A DNA stretch of 64,000 nucleotides, from positions 62,001 to 126,000 of the IMG/VR virus record IMGVR_UViG_3300050821_001527. The stretch is one strand, 5' to 3'. Made by a program: the position numbers and the translations under genes. Below, in pieces: positions 2,612-61,916 of this stretch. Origin of the DNA: a virus. A model generated the notes under the pieces. The model was not told the origin of the DNA. It did no database searches and was given only the letters and a program-made list of their open reading frames with translations. The stretch's first letter is position 1. Each line of letters starts with the position of its first letter.

Positions 2612-5600
2612 ATGGCGTTCCAAGCACTCAAAGGCGTAAGCATAATCCCCAAAGGGGCGAACAACAGGTATGTCAGTCAGAACTGGCAGACCTCGCAGGC
2701 TTTTGGCGGCTGGATTTTCAAGGCTGATTGCAAAATAGGATTCAGCGATAAGCCTACAGAAATCTCCATGCAGATAGTATTGGAGACGAATTCGGACTTG
2801 AGCAACCTTGTTCCGCAGGTTTTCGATATTTCCCCGAACGATTTGCAATGCGGGGCCGGGGCCGGTGGAACCGAACAGGAAAGTCTTTACGATATTGACT
2901 TCAATGGAGTGCTTCTGAGCGACTTTGTTTTGTTCAGTTACGACATGGATATTCAACCAAACCAGAAGACCCTTTCCGTAGTCTTCAAGGACTACTCCAT
3001 CGTTCTGGACAAAATCTATGTCGGGCTTATCAAGCGTCAAGGAACTGAATTCATAAAGTCGGCGCAGGCGTCCGGCATTATCCCGGTCGTATGTCCTGAC
3101 TGTGAATTCGGCTCATGGACAGGCGATGGGGCGGTGGTCAGGGATATTGATTACGGCTCTTACGTGGGCATTGGAGGAAAGACCTACGACAACTTGGCCG
3201 GAACCCCAATCACCAATGCTCTCTCGGCTTGGCAATATCTTTACGAACTTCCGACGCAGCAACCGACTTTCGACCTGAACGGTGGTTATATCATCTTGGG
3301 AATGGAGCAGATGTATTCGGATGTTTGTTCCACTGTGCCCGAAATGAAATACACGTTCCACCAACTCCTTGCTTCCTTGAGAGTTAGGGGTCTGAATTTT
3401 GACGGAGCCTTTACAGGATTCCTGCTGACGGGAACGCCATACATGCAGAATTATGTTGGCACTTTGAGGGAAGTGCTTAATAACTGGTGTTCGGATTTCG
3501 GATTACAGTTCTATACCACGGGCAGAACTTTCATCGGACTCAACATGGTCAACCAGATTGACATTGAGAGAATCATGTCAATCGCAGACCCGAAGACGAC
3601 CTTGGGTGCGGAGTTTGACGGGTCTTCTCAAGTGGCCTTGAGCAACTACCGCGAATCCCACACGCTCGAAAATACTTTCAAGCAGTCCGTTATCACGGCT
3701 GACGTTCGCCCGCGTCAAATCAACAATGAATCTAGGGATGTAAAGAACTTCGTCTCGTTCCAGCCTTTGCATCCTTTGGACTTCTACAGCCCTGACTTCT
3801 CCCCTTTGTTTGCGGAAGTATTGCAGAATCATCTGTCAACAGTCAGGCACAGGACAACCGGCGTCCAGTTTGCAAACGATTTCATGGCGACGAAAAAGAG
3901 ATTCTCGTCGTTCACAAACAGATACTTCAAGGATATTGACATCTCGATTGCCTTGACGAAATATGACCCTGATATGAGGGACATCTACTGCGCGAACAGG
4001 GCCATCCAAGCCAACATTGATGAAGGCGGTGTTTTCGACCCGAACACGACCAGTAACGACAATGTTTCGGATTTCTACGCGAACTTTGCAGCCCTTGGTT
4101 TCATTCCTCAGATTCAGATTACCAACGTTACAGCCAAGGAAGCGGCTATCAGAAAGTTACTGGGAGGAAATCTCAGCCAGAATATTTCCCTCAACCCGGA
4201 CTTCTACGAGGTCTTCGTGGGATATTATCAGCCTTACTTGAAGCAGGAAGTCACGTCCTTTGAAGGAACATGGGCCGGGGCGATGTATAAATACGGGGTA
4301 TTGAACATTGGAACTACTGACGTTCCCCCGTTCGTCCACAAAGACTTTAACCAATGGGACACTCCGACAGGGGGGCTATACGGTGTTTCTGGCGATTATC
4401 TAACTAAATTGGTAAACACGTTCACGCCAGCAGCGAATTTCTACCCGATTTATCAAGACGCTCCATATTACGATTTGATGCCGTATCACATCCTCGGTTT
4501 CAATCCTAACGCTTACACGGGCGCGTCACTTGGAAATATCGGGTTCGACTCCAACCAATACTATGTTGGTTCTCTAAGTAACGAATGGGGAACGCTGGAC
4601 TTCCAATACAAACAGGAGCTATACGATGCCCTTTCCCCTGTCTGCGAACAGATGTTCAGCGTGTCTGATAACCTTCAGAAAATCCAGAGGGAACTTCCGC
4701 AAAGCATCCAGCACTTCAATATCAAAGACTTCATGCCAACGTTCCATCCGAACATCGGTGAAGTTTACAACGACTTGAAGGCGGAATTGGACAACCTTTC
4801 CACAACGGCGACAGATGCCATTGGTATCTTGGCTGTCGGAACTGACAGTCGAATCCATCAGGAGTGTGCCAAGTTGCACGTTTGCATCGTTCCTAACATC
4901 GAGACACACCCGAATGCCAGAATCTCGTTCAATATGAACGACTACTATGATTCGTATAATGCAATCATGGCCCGTAATTTGTTCCTGCAATACGAAACCC
5001 AGCGTCTTGAATTGTTAAAGCAGGTTCCACCGAACATCTGTAAATATTCCCCTGTGTCCGTGGTCTGCAATACCGGGCTTCTGCTTAGTGGCGAGGCTCA
5101 TTCAGGGGACTCGAAATTCTCCTGCACGAACATTGATGACCCTATTTCTATTCTGTGGGCGGGATGGCCGTCGGGATTCGCGTCGGGAAACAACGCTCGT
5201 TCCCTGTCCATTACCGTGGAGAGAAACCCGGTAACGAGCATGGAGCAGAAGGGACTGGACGGAGAATATTACTATGACGAGGCTTTGCAGGCAGTCCCAT
5301 CGTTGATTCACAGAATCGCCTCCACCAAAATCATCTACCCAATCTCAAACAAGCCGAACGACCTGTTCGAGTATATCGGGCTAATGAGTTCTACCATCAG
5401 CAGAGAATTGAGAACTCCACCGTTCATGGAAATCTACGGTTCTCCGGTAAGTGAGACGGGGAACAACACTTCAATGGTAAAGACCATCAATAACACCATT
5501 GACCCGGACGTAAAGCCAATCCTAGACCCGAATACCATGCGTTTCAAAAACTACGCCACGGTTTACTCTGGGAATGCCAATGGAACTGTTTTGCAGACGA

Positions 5601-46617: not shown

Positions 46618-47001
46618 GGGGACGTAATGGTTTCGACATTTATTGTTGAAAGCCGAACGCAAGCACGGGATGATTGTTGGCCCGTTAAAAATTCAATCAA
46701 AACATAAATGCTAACAAAGTAGCACTTAGAAATGCAGTTGACTGCGGAGTAGTTCGCGGTTTTGCAGCATTTGCGATGGCTTAATGCCGTCCCGTCCACC
46801 ACTCCGATTCTCGCTACGAGTGAATGGGCGTAAAAACAGCGGGAAAAAACCCTAGAGCCGGTTCGAGGGTAACGGAACCGGATATTGATGGTGAGTTTTG
46901 CTGCCAGTGTAGCCAATCAAGAATATCAAAGGCTGATAAGCTTGTAGTGTTTTTCTTGCAAACGTAAGTGGACGCGGGTTCAACTCCCGCCGTCTCCACC
47001 A
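46618..47001 (+). ncRNA. ssrA: tmRNA (SsrA), 384 nt with encoded CCA
   Basis: GGGGACG (46618-46624) pairs with CGTCTCC (46991-46997) as the tRNA-like acceptor stem, followed by ACCA. The 3' end carries a normal T-arm with loop TTCAACT and the family's conserved AAGCTTGTAGT stretch. The likely resume codon is GCT near 46709 and the tag would read ANKVALRN... ending ...FAAFAMA before TAA (24 residues, longer than the usual 8-15). Rescues stalled ribosomes; reading frame of the tag is inferred. Confidence 0.85.
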
Positions 47002-54906: not shown

Positions 54907-55386
54907 TTAATGAGGGTTGTGTTTGACGACCCTTTCGCATAGAGCGATAAACTCGTCAACCGAAAGGTCTTGTTTAGCGTAGTTCACTTCGCTAGTAACC
55001 AAGCCACAGTTCGCCAGAGATGATTCGCCGCCTTTTGAAACTGCGACGATATGGTCTAGGGAATAGGTTTCCGGCTTGGAAATGTCAATTCTTTCACCAG
55101 TAAGATAGCAGCGTGGCTCACTTCCGATTTTATCCTTGAGTTGTTGAACGGTGAATTTGACGACTTTTGGGCGCACAGAACTTCTTCGATTGCCCCTGTA
55201 AAACGTCGCAATCTTAGAAACGAGAGGATTAGTTTCTCGGTAGTTTTTGGTGTTCTTTTGCATAGAAAGCTTTCTGTTCGGGCTGAAACGGTAGATAAGA
55301 GTCCATTTTGAGATTCCGGTTTCCTTGGCAACCGCGTCATAGCTCATTCCGTCAGTAAGCATTTTTTGAATTTTTTCATCGTTCAT
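54907..55386 (-). CDS. HNH endonuclease in tRNA array
   Basis: 160 residues from ATG 55386, chosen because TAATAT (55392-55397) lies 5 nt upstream on this strand. An N-terminal helix-turn-helix-like part (MSYDAVAKETGISKWTLIYRF), then CYLTGERIDI...YSLDHIVAVSKGGESSLANCGLVTSEVNYAKQ: the HNH metal motif with DH, then N and N. It runs opposite to the tRNAs and its 3' end is 2 nt from tRNA-Trp. Probably a selfish homing enzyme within the array. Confidence 0.85.
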   Translation of the reverse strand: MNDEKIQKMLTDGMSYDAVAKETGISKWTLIYRFSPNRKLSMQKNTKNYRETNPLVSKIATFYRGNRRSSVRPKVVKFTVQQLKDKIGSEPRCYLTGERIDISKPETYSLDHIVAVSKGGESSLANCGLVTSEVNYAKQDLSVDEFIALCERVVKHNPH

Positions 55387-59542: not shown

Positions 59543-59973
59543 ATTTGTCCGAAGCTATAATCCCCGTGCGTAATAGCACTAAGCGCAAGTAGGCCGAAAG
59601 GCAGAACCGTGATGGTGGATGAACTGCTCGTCTAAAATATCGGCTACATAATTTAGTCAGGTCGTCGGTCTGTCGTTGCGGTGAGCAATCACCAAGCCTA
59701 TGGGACGGCGGCTCGAAAAGGTATCCGTAAGCTGGCAGGAATCGCTTGTGCAAGATTCCACTACCGAAGGAGAATGCGGCGAAAGCCAAGTTCGTTCGCA
59801 CTTGTAGTAGGTCAGTCATCTCAGCCGAGGCAGGCATTTTCAAAATCGTTAGGGTTAGTCCAACCACGGTAAAACGTGAGAGGGGTCATAAAAGACTGCA
59901 AGCGTCACCCTGCCTAAAACCCCCTGTTGGTGAGTGGATAGTTGAAAACGAGGTCAGCGATGACCTGACTTTT
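59543..59973 (+). other. 431-nt segment without CDS, several hairpins
   Basis: Has GGAATC/GATTCC near 59739-59760 and AGGTCA-GCGA-TGACCT at 59951-59966, but no CCA-ended cloverleaf and no sound ORF. The longest rightward frame (59746-60072) runs through tRNA 59974. Could be a structured RNA or several decayed tRNAs. Confidence 0.4.
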
Positions 59974-60364: not shown

Positions 60365-60376
60365 TTTTCAAGACAT

Positions 60377-60464
60377 TTCCCCTGACGAAAGCTCTACGAT
60401 GTAGAACATCGCACCAGCAAGTCATGGTTACATGACGTGTCCGTGGACGCACGGAAGCGGGGAG
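60377..60464 (+). ncRNA. CCA-less four-arm structured element
   Basis: TTCCCC and GGGGAG close three hairpins: CTAC-GAT-GTAG, GTCATG-GTTA-CATGAC, CCGTG-GACG-CACGG. A cloverleaf-like outline without tRNA loops or CCA. Confidence 0.4.
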
Positions 60465-60474
60465 TTTGAATTTT

Positions 60475-60670: not shown

Positions 60671-60744
60671 AGGGATATAGTATAAAAGTAGAACGGCACC
60701 CTGACACGGTGAAGGCGAAGGAGCGTTACCTTCTATCCCTACCA
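60671..60744 (+). tRNA. tRNA-Val(GAC)
   Basis: AGGGATA/TATCCCT perfect, ACCA; anticodon GCACC/GGTGA, loop CTGACAC; D-loop AAAAGTA; T-arm GAAGG-AGCGTTA-CCTTC. Confidence 0.82.
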
Positions 60745-60749
60745 TTTTA

Positions 60750-60830
60750 TGAGAATCGAGACGCGGGTGCATATCCCGCCTGCCTGTTTAAATACTTGCA
60801 GTAGCTTAGTAGCAGAGCGCGATTCGTCTC
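60750..60830 (+). tRNA. Circularly permuted tRNA candidate A
   Basis: Order is 3' half then 5' half: AATCG (60754-60758), AGAC, T-arm GCGGG-TGCATAT-CCCGC, CTGCCTG, 8 nt, CTTGCAG, TA, D-arm GCTT-AGTAGCA-GAGC, G, CGATT (60820-60824). AATCG and CGATT make a 5-bp anticodon stem across the ends; four acceptor pairs next to the T-stem hold. D- and T-loops share the A18/G55 type, as expected if they belong to one tRNA. No CCA encoded. Confidence 0.5.
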
Positions 60831-60838
60831 CCTTTTAC

Positions 60839-60917
60839 GGAACGGTAACTCAAATGGGTCAAGAGTGTTCGCCCGATTAGCGAAAGGTTGTGGACTCCCA
60901 AGCCACTCGTTCTACCA
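60839..60917 (+). tRNA. tRNA-Ile(GAT), C33
   Basis: GGAACGG/TCGTTCT, ACCA; D-stem ACTC/GAGT loop AAATGGGTCAA (GG); anticodon TTCGC/GCGAA, loop CCGATTA with C33; T-loop CTCCCAA (U55-C56). Confidence 0.72.
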
Positions 60918-61835: not shown

Positions 61836-61916
61836 CAGTCTTGGTCGAGGCGTGGGTTCGATTCCGCCGTGTGGCTCCATGCCGCACGTAGCTTAGTGGC
61901 AGAGCGCGACCTGTTC
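61834..61916 (+). tRNA. Circularly permuted tRNA candidate B
   Basis: Order: GGTCG (61843-61847), AGGC, T-arm with canonical loop TTCGATT, GTGTGGC (61869-61875), T, CCA (61877-61879), one nt, GCCGCAC (61881-61887), then D-arm GCTT-AGTGGCA-GAGC, G, CGACC (61907-61911). The acceptor (7 bp) and anticodon stem (5 bp) pair perfectly across the halves. Outside, AACA and TGTT form a second helix across a 5-nt bulge, a bulge-helix-like junction. The T-stem has two mismatches. Anticodon not determinable before splicing is known. Confidence 0.6.

Follow-up and report, generated by a model that had tools for sequence, protein, structure and literature searches.

The tRNA array and the slot between tRNA-Val and tRNA-Ile

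The window analysed here is a 64 kb stretch of DNA that corresponds to bases 62001-126000 in a virus record of 202,882 bases, and it holds DNA-replication genes together with a long tRNA array that begins at about window position 55,000 and extends beyond the window end. Within the array, on the + strand, a tRNA-Val (GAC) with an encoded CCA (60671..60744; Rfam tRNA 46.7 bits at 60671-60741) is followed by an element that we call candidate A (60754..60824, + strand) and then by a tRNA-Ile (GAT) at 60839..60917 (+), which was read by eye and is the weaker assignment, since it has neither an ARAGORN nor an Rfam call. Candidate A is a tRNA with the 3' half placed ahead of the 5' half. It occupies the slot between the two tRNAs, with gaps of 9 nt upstream (60745-60753) and 14 nt downstream (60825-60838). 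A second module of the same layout, candidate B, lies at 61843..61911, also on the + strand.

The array holds other structured RNAs as well. An Rfam match to raiA RNA (RF03072) spans window 59659-59966 (54.9 bits, E 2e-11); it covers the full length of the model, yet stays below the gathering score of 101, and it marks a sizeable structured RNA within the tRNA array of a phage. The slot at 60365-60470 is strongly structured too (MFE z -4.1), with a basal stem, including TTCAA/TTTGAA and CCCC/GGGG strands, that closes several hairpins; no Rfam family matches it. Distant from the array, ARAGORN calls a tmRNA at window 46618-47001 with the tag ANKVALRNAVDCGVVRGFAAFAMA, a call that is possibly spurious.

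Anatomy of candidate A

Read from its 5' end, candidate A begins with AATCG (60754..60758, +), the 3' strand of an anticodon-like stem, followed by AGAC (60759-60762) and by the T arm GCGGG-TGCATAT-CCCGC (60763..60779, +), which carries G55 and C56. Then comes an acceptor-like hairpin, CTGCCTG-TTTAAATA-CTTGCAG (60780..60801, +), whose strands at 60780-60786 and 60795-60801 are connected by the linker at 60787-60794. After TA there is the D arm GCTT-AGTAGCA-GAGC (60804..60818, +), with A18 and G19, and after a single G the module ends with CGATT (60820..60824, +), the 5' strand of the anticodon-like stem. This stem, formed across the two ends, has 5/5 pairs. Outside it, GAG (60751..60753, +) pairs with CTC (60828..60830, +), which lies beyond a 3-nt CGT bulge; if the anticodon-like stem is taken as 4 bp, the outer helix becomes GAGA/TCTC. 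The RNAfold MFE structure is the full permuted cloverleaf at -24.3 kcal/mol and contains both the cross-end stem and the outer helix, although the fold energy by itself is unremarkable (z -1.5). A sequence-only reading of this DNA had named all of these elements and described the slot as filled by them, and on checking they are indeed there.

Its reservations about the acceptor also hold. The acceptor-like stem pairs at 5 of 7 positions, with adjacent T.T and T.C mismatches at 2-71 and 3-70, and no CCA is encoded. Further, the 5' half has no U33; an anticodon loop derived from the leader would read TTATGAG, U33 included. The T loop has no 54-58 pair and no U55, and because its position 55 is G, pseudouridine 55 cannot form. 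Candidate B follows the order GGTCG...CGTGTGGC-TCCAT-GCCGCACG...CGACC; its acceptor hairpin has 8 bp and a TCCAT loop, and its T stem is imperfect.

The assignment of A to an A18/G55 loop type rests on a type that is real in these phages: among 94 of their tRNAs, GG18 goes with T55 in 55, AG goes with G55 in 31, and 8 have other combinations. A is A18/G55 in both halves and B is G18/T55 in both halves, which is consistent with the halves of each module belonging together. The arrays of this virus and its relatives (L046-L050) show this D-loop/T-loop covariation, G18-T55 or A18-G55, in general, and across the same 94 tRNAs T54-A58 alternates with A54-T58, in T loops of the forms TGCRANN and AGCRTTA.

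Is the arrangement accidental?

A covariance model (R1) whose only input was ordinary tRNAs, rearranged in silico, ranks A and B first and second in the 64 kb window, with 32.3 and 30.9 bits. However, certain places where two complete tRNAs meet receive high R1 scores as well, up to 42.5 bits. Since ordinary tandem pairs can do so well with a permuted model, one may argue that A is nothing but two unrelated tRNA fragments lying side by side by chance, their cross-pairing being an accident. For this reason we counted only matches without an overlapping normal tRNA, a restriction that is essential to our argument, and we rejected a pairing p-value as sole proof. The high-scoring tandem pairs overlap complete tRNAs, whereas A and B do not.

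A structure profile trained on 93 ordinary tRNAs, taken from this virus and from relatives, gave the same result when it was run in the permuted order. In their own array its two best scores fall on A (41.3) and B (39.1), and they are the only high-scoring permuted matches there that do not overlap a normal tRNA. None of 200 dinucleotide shuffles of 17 kb of the array reached a score of 39, the maximum being 23.1. When halves of unrelated real tRNAs were recombined (8742 combinations), pairing at least as good as that of A appeared in 0.2% and as that of B in 0.02%. Taken alone across about 60 slots, A would be borderline against chance. Taken together, A and B, with the recurrence of the layout in relatives described below, are not chance, and in our opinion an accidental juxtaposition of fragments is highly improbable.

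The same layout in other viruses

The permuted layout without an overlapping ordinary tRNA recurs in many viral tRNA arrays, of related and of unrelated viruses. Module C in G002 has a perfect acceptor-like stem, GCCGTCT/AGACGGC (7/7), and further loci with the layout lie in L209, L217, L235, L237 (two), L239, L193, L265, L266 and L268. Several of them also have perfectly paired sequences flanking the module, as with AGGATACTT/AAGTATCCT in L235 and AGGTACG/CGTACCT in L209 (by eye). When 22 modules are compared, every position of the acceptor-like stem is paired in 20-22 of them and by many kinds of pair, whereas slid controls reach about 39%; the modules were partly selected by pairing and the counts are biased toward it, a selection of which the Rfam and Ro60 links given below are independent. 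In the anticodon-like stem the first three pairs are firm and the later ones looser. The idea that A and B stand for a real class was right, and with 22 members the class is far larger than these two; its members, however, are not tRNA genes awaiting circularisation or splicing. Homologues of A itself were sought with its D-arm pattern in viral contigs (0 matches) and through two proteins beside the array (no relatives found), and in viruses whose DNA polymerase is related, arrays of this kind are mostly missing.

The acceptor loops of the relatives are as short as TT, TTTT and TTCG (a UUCG tetraloop, once), which fits a permanent hairpin. In several modules the loop is an NCCA-AT(T) remnant typical of these tRNA arrays, for example GCCATAT, TCCATAT, GCCATTTA, TCCAAAT or TCCAT. 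Such loops look like what lies between two tandem tRNAs, a 3' CCA plus spacer, and may be a record of how these RNAs originated.

These remnants bear on another explanation of A, namely that it is a relic of a tandem tRNA duplication whose outer halves were lost and whose inner halves are drifting without function. Birth from tandem tRNAs is what the loops of several members suggest, and the adjacent acceptor mismatches, the odd T loop, the lack of an outer stem and the missing CCA would agree with decay. But the T, D and cross-end stems of A are perfect, the acceptor hairpin of B reaches its 8 bp, and many viruses repeat the layout with compensatory variation. It is possible that A is a decayed former module or tRNA; we consider a functionless relic unlikely.

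Other permuted RNAs were seen in these contigs. In L049, at about 4508-4648 (G017), the permutation is a different one, with the break in the D loop: the anticodon arm TTAGC-CTTGAAA-GCTAA is intact (UGA anticodon), ACCA is encoded, the acceptor pairs 7/7, and the outer ends are joined by a 9-bp helix, ACGGATCTA/TAGATCCGT. This module is a better candidate than A for a real tRNA of the permuted or two-piece kind. The permuted scanner also picked up permuted tmRNA-like loci (GGGGGTGCGATTCCCCC CGCCTCC ACCA ... GGGGGCG, identified by eye) in many viral contigs, marine ones included, among them L158, L181, L198, L213, L214 and L245.

Relationship to Y RNAs and Ro60

A bacterial Y RNA (6CU1) superposes on tRNA via a circular permutation (PMC11472068), and in YrlA the D, T and acceptor-like arms come with a basal stem to which Rsr binds (PMC8394870). 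YrlA has been noted in phages (PMC7765460), some jumbo phages carry TROVE proteins and RtcB (PMC7824862), and in archaeal tRNA clusters TROVE genes accompany 20 of 29 (PMC6333295).

Matches to the Rfam model YrlA (RF02553, Y RNA-like) coincide with the module coordinates in L217, L235 and L237 and are also present on L265, L266, L272, L273 and L274, the best with 55.9 bits (E 6.5e-10). A TROVE (Ro60) gene is found in 5 of 50 tRNA-array virus records (G002, G074, G089, G095, G102). It is near permuted modules in G002, G074, G095 and G102, and in the last three it lies within about 1 kb of YrlA matches. Two of the Ro60 proteins were checked against Pfam and have the TROVE and Ro60 vWA domains, the vWA match of G002 being under the cut-off. 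Among phage isolates, 78 records carry a relative of the G002 Ro60. In the cultured phages CcrColossus, Kikimora and Xanthomonas phage 10KY502B (L272, L273, L274), 3-4 tandem modules stand directly upstream of the Ro60 gene, and the permuted scanner, which is blind to Y RNAs, gives them scores up to 56.4. The Y RNAs upstream of phage Ro60 share the leader motif GGTGGYGTAG...TACTTC. R1, trained only on rearranged normal tRNAs, detects the phage Y RNAs as well as A and B. Some modules in these three phages are overlapped by annotated tRNA-Gln, tRNA-Ser and tRNA-Thr features, which look like misannotations.

On A itself the YrlA model aligns from end to end, with the GAG/CTC helix placed by cmscan as P2, at 13.6 bits and E 2.9 against a gathering score of 69 bits; its core scores 15.9 bits on B. 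The phage Y RNAs next to Ro60 are below the gathering score too (best 55.9). Since the model also matches weakly in E. coli and other controls, presumably on ordinary tRNAs, we do not trust weak YrlA matches alone. A genome-wide YrlA search of this virus record returned nothing at E 0.01, the Ro-binding motif is absent from the window, and a search of the 202,882-base record, which is possibly incomplete, found no Ro60 (TROVE) gene; Rsr could be supplied by the host. The flanks of 9 and 14 nt leave no space for a basal stem, the outer helix being just 3-4 bp. Given this, the lack of a Ro motif or Ro60 gene and the 13.6 bits, we refrain from classing A among the Y RNAs. A belongs to the class by its layout, and the class is tied to YrlA matches and Ro60 genes in relatives. 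Of the original description of A as a permuted tRNA gene, the layout and the cross-half pairing stand, whereas the class, where it can be checked, turns out to be the tRNA-like module that YrlA-type Y RNAs carry.

A tRNA or a tRNA look-alike?

One could still take A for a real circularly permuted tRNA gene, whose transcript is joined end to end at the anticodon stem, has its acceptor opened by RNase P and a CCA then added, and is used in translation. The 3'-half-first order, the 5-bp stem across the ends and the matching A18/G55 type of the two halves speak for it, and the leader-only loop TTATGAG would supply U33. A possible ligase is also at hand, because the record encodes an RtcB RNA ligase of 389 aa (G000:155297-156466, L270 2298-3467; Pfam 362.7 bits), and this keeps the alternative alive. 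The RtcB gene lies about 25-30 kb from the tRNA array. In Salmonella, RtcB, Rsr and YrlA are in one operon (PMC7790460). A search for T4 Rnl1 was uninformative, as the controls gave no match.

What stands against a permuted tRNA gene is, to begin with, the missing CCA, the mismatches 2-71 and 3-70 and the 5' half without U33. Moreover, the ends of A form a single 3-nt bulge and a 3-bp helix, not a bulge-helix-bulge, and a search of the virus record for a splicing endonuclease (PF01974) found none. Finally, the acceptors of the relatives are closed by short loops (TTCG, TTTT, TT), some of them accompanied by Ro60. Without an encoded CCA and without U33 in the 5' half, A is unlikely as a decoding tRNA; it more likely imitates a tRNA than works as one, and we regard the permuted-gene explanation as quite improbable. 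Splicing at a bulge-helix-bulge was rejected because the structure is not formed. A group I or other self-splicing intron was rejected as well, the flanks being just 9 and 14 nt with no Rfam match there.

In our opinion, with a probability of roughly 0.7, A is best read as a free-standing tRNA mimic of the YrlA type, with a permuted fold, a closed acceptor hairpin, and ends that meet at the anticodon stem. How it is expressed, processed and used we infer as follows. Processing of the tRNA-Val 3' end would set the 5' end of A, and RNase P acting at tRNA-Ile would set its 3' end, so that maturation of the flanking tRNAs would free A from the array transcript as an RNA of about 80-95 nt. The freed RNA would be stable and L-shaped, incapable of charging or decoding. 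Its closed acceptor and absent anticodon make it unfit for translation, yet the elbow recognised by tRNA-binding proteins stays in place. Mimicry would be the most likely role, with A offering its T-arm/D-arm/acceptor elbow to partners that bind tRNA. It may serve to divert host tRNA-cutting nucleases as a decoy, or as a Y-RNA-type ligand of PNPase or of tRNA-modifying enzymes. The tRNA-like domain of YrlA has been suggested as a competitive inhibitor of an anticodon nuclease (PMC7790460), and DusA and TruB modify YrlA, which also acts as a tether for PNPase (PMC8394870). In this virus A would do without the Ro60-binding stem.

A broader speculation, which we hold to be doubtful, is that viruses with large arrays repeatedly make Y-RNA-like mimics from tandem tRNAs, with an NCCA-AT remnant left as the acceptor loop, and that in this lineage the bare module, which has an A18/G55 elbow of its own and lacks a Ro60 stem, is a free decoy against defences that target tRNA. 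If A is a mimic, a puzzling 'permuted tRNA' is accounted for by a known RNA fold. The survey also shows that viral tRNA arrays commonly contain tRNA mimics of the Y-RNA type; some stand next to a viral Ro60 gene, and some have been annotated as ordinary tRNAs. The remnants of CCA seen in several of the acceptor loops point to a possible route from tandem tRNA genes to the tRNA-like part of Y RNAs, and cultured phages with these RNAs are available for testing their role.

Comparison with known systems

Circularly permuted tRNA genes are known from red algae and archaea (reviewed in PMC3978253); a literature search of partial coverage found no report of them in phages. Like those genes, A has its 3' half encoded first, ends near the anticodon, carries a short linker between the acceptor strands, and shows pairing acceptor and anticodon stems, the acceptor at only 5/7. 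Unlike them, it forms no bulge-helix-bulge, its acceptor is not intact, U33 is missing from the 5' half, and CCA is not encoded, though it can be added; the splicing endonuclease was not found in the record. The two-piece permuted tmRNA (RF04321, RF01849) shares with A the permuted order around the acceptor stem and is likewise a bacterial or phage RNA. However, A has neither a tag reading frame nor a tmRNA 5' domain, and its ends join at an anticodon-like stem.

The Ro60-Y RNA loci of phages such as the Caulobacter phage CcrColossus share with the present case the permuted modules, in a phage, close to tRNA genes. Such loci have 3-4 full-length YrlA RNAs with the Ro motif before TROVE, whereas the present virus has two bare modules inside the array and no TROVE. 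Compared with the YrlA module itself (RF02553; 6CU1), A lacks both the basal stem for Ro60/Rsr binding and the GGUGGYGUAG...UACUUC motif, its Rfam score is well under the cut-off, the Ro60 gene is absent from the record, and with G at position 55 the usual TruB target uridine is missing. The two share a circularly permuted tRNA fold in which the T arm comes first, followed by a closed acceptor-like hairpin and then the D arm, with the ends at an anticodon-like stem and a short second helix past it. Candidate A has the fold of the tRNA-like module of a Y RNA, and it probably works in a similar way.
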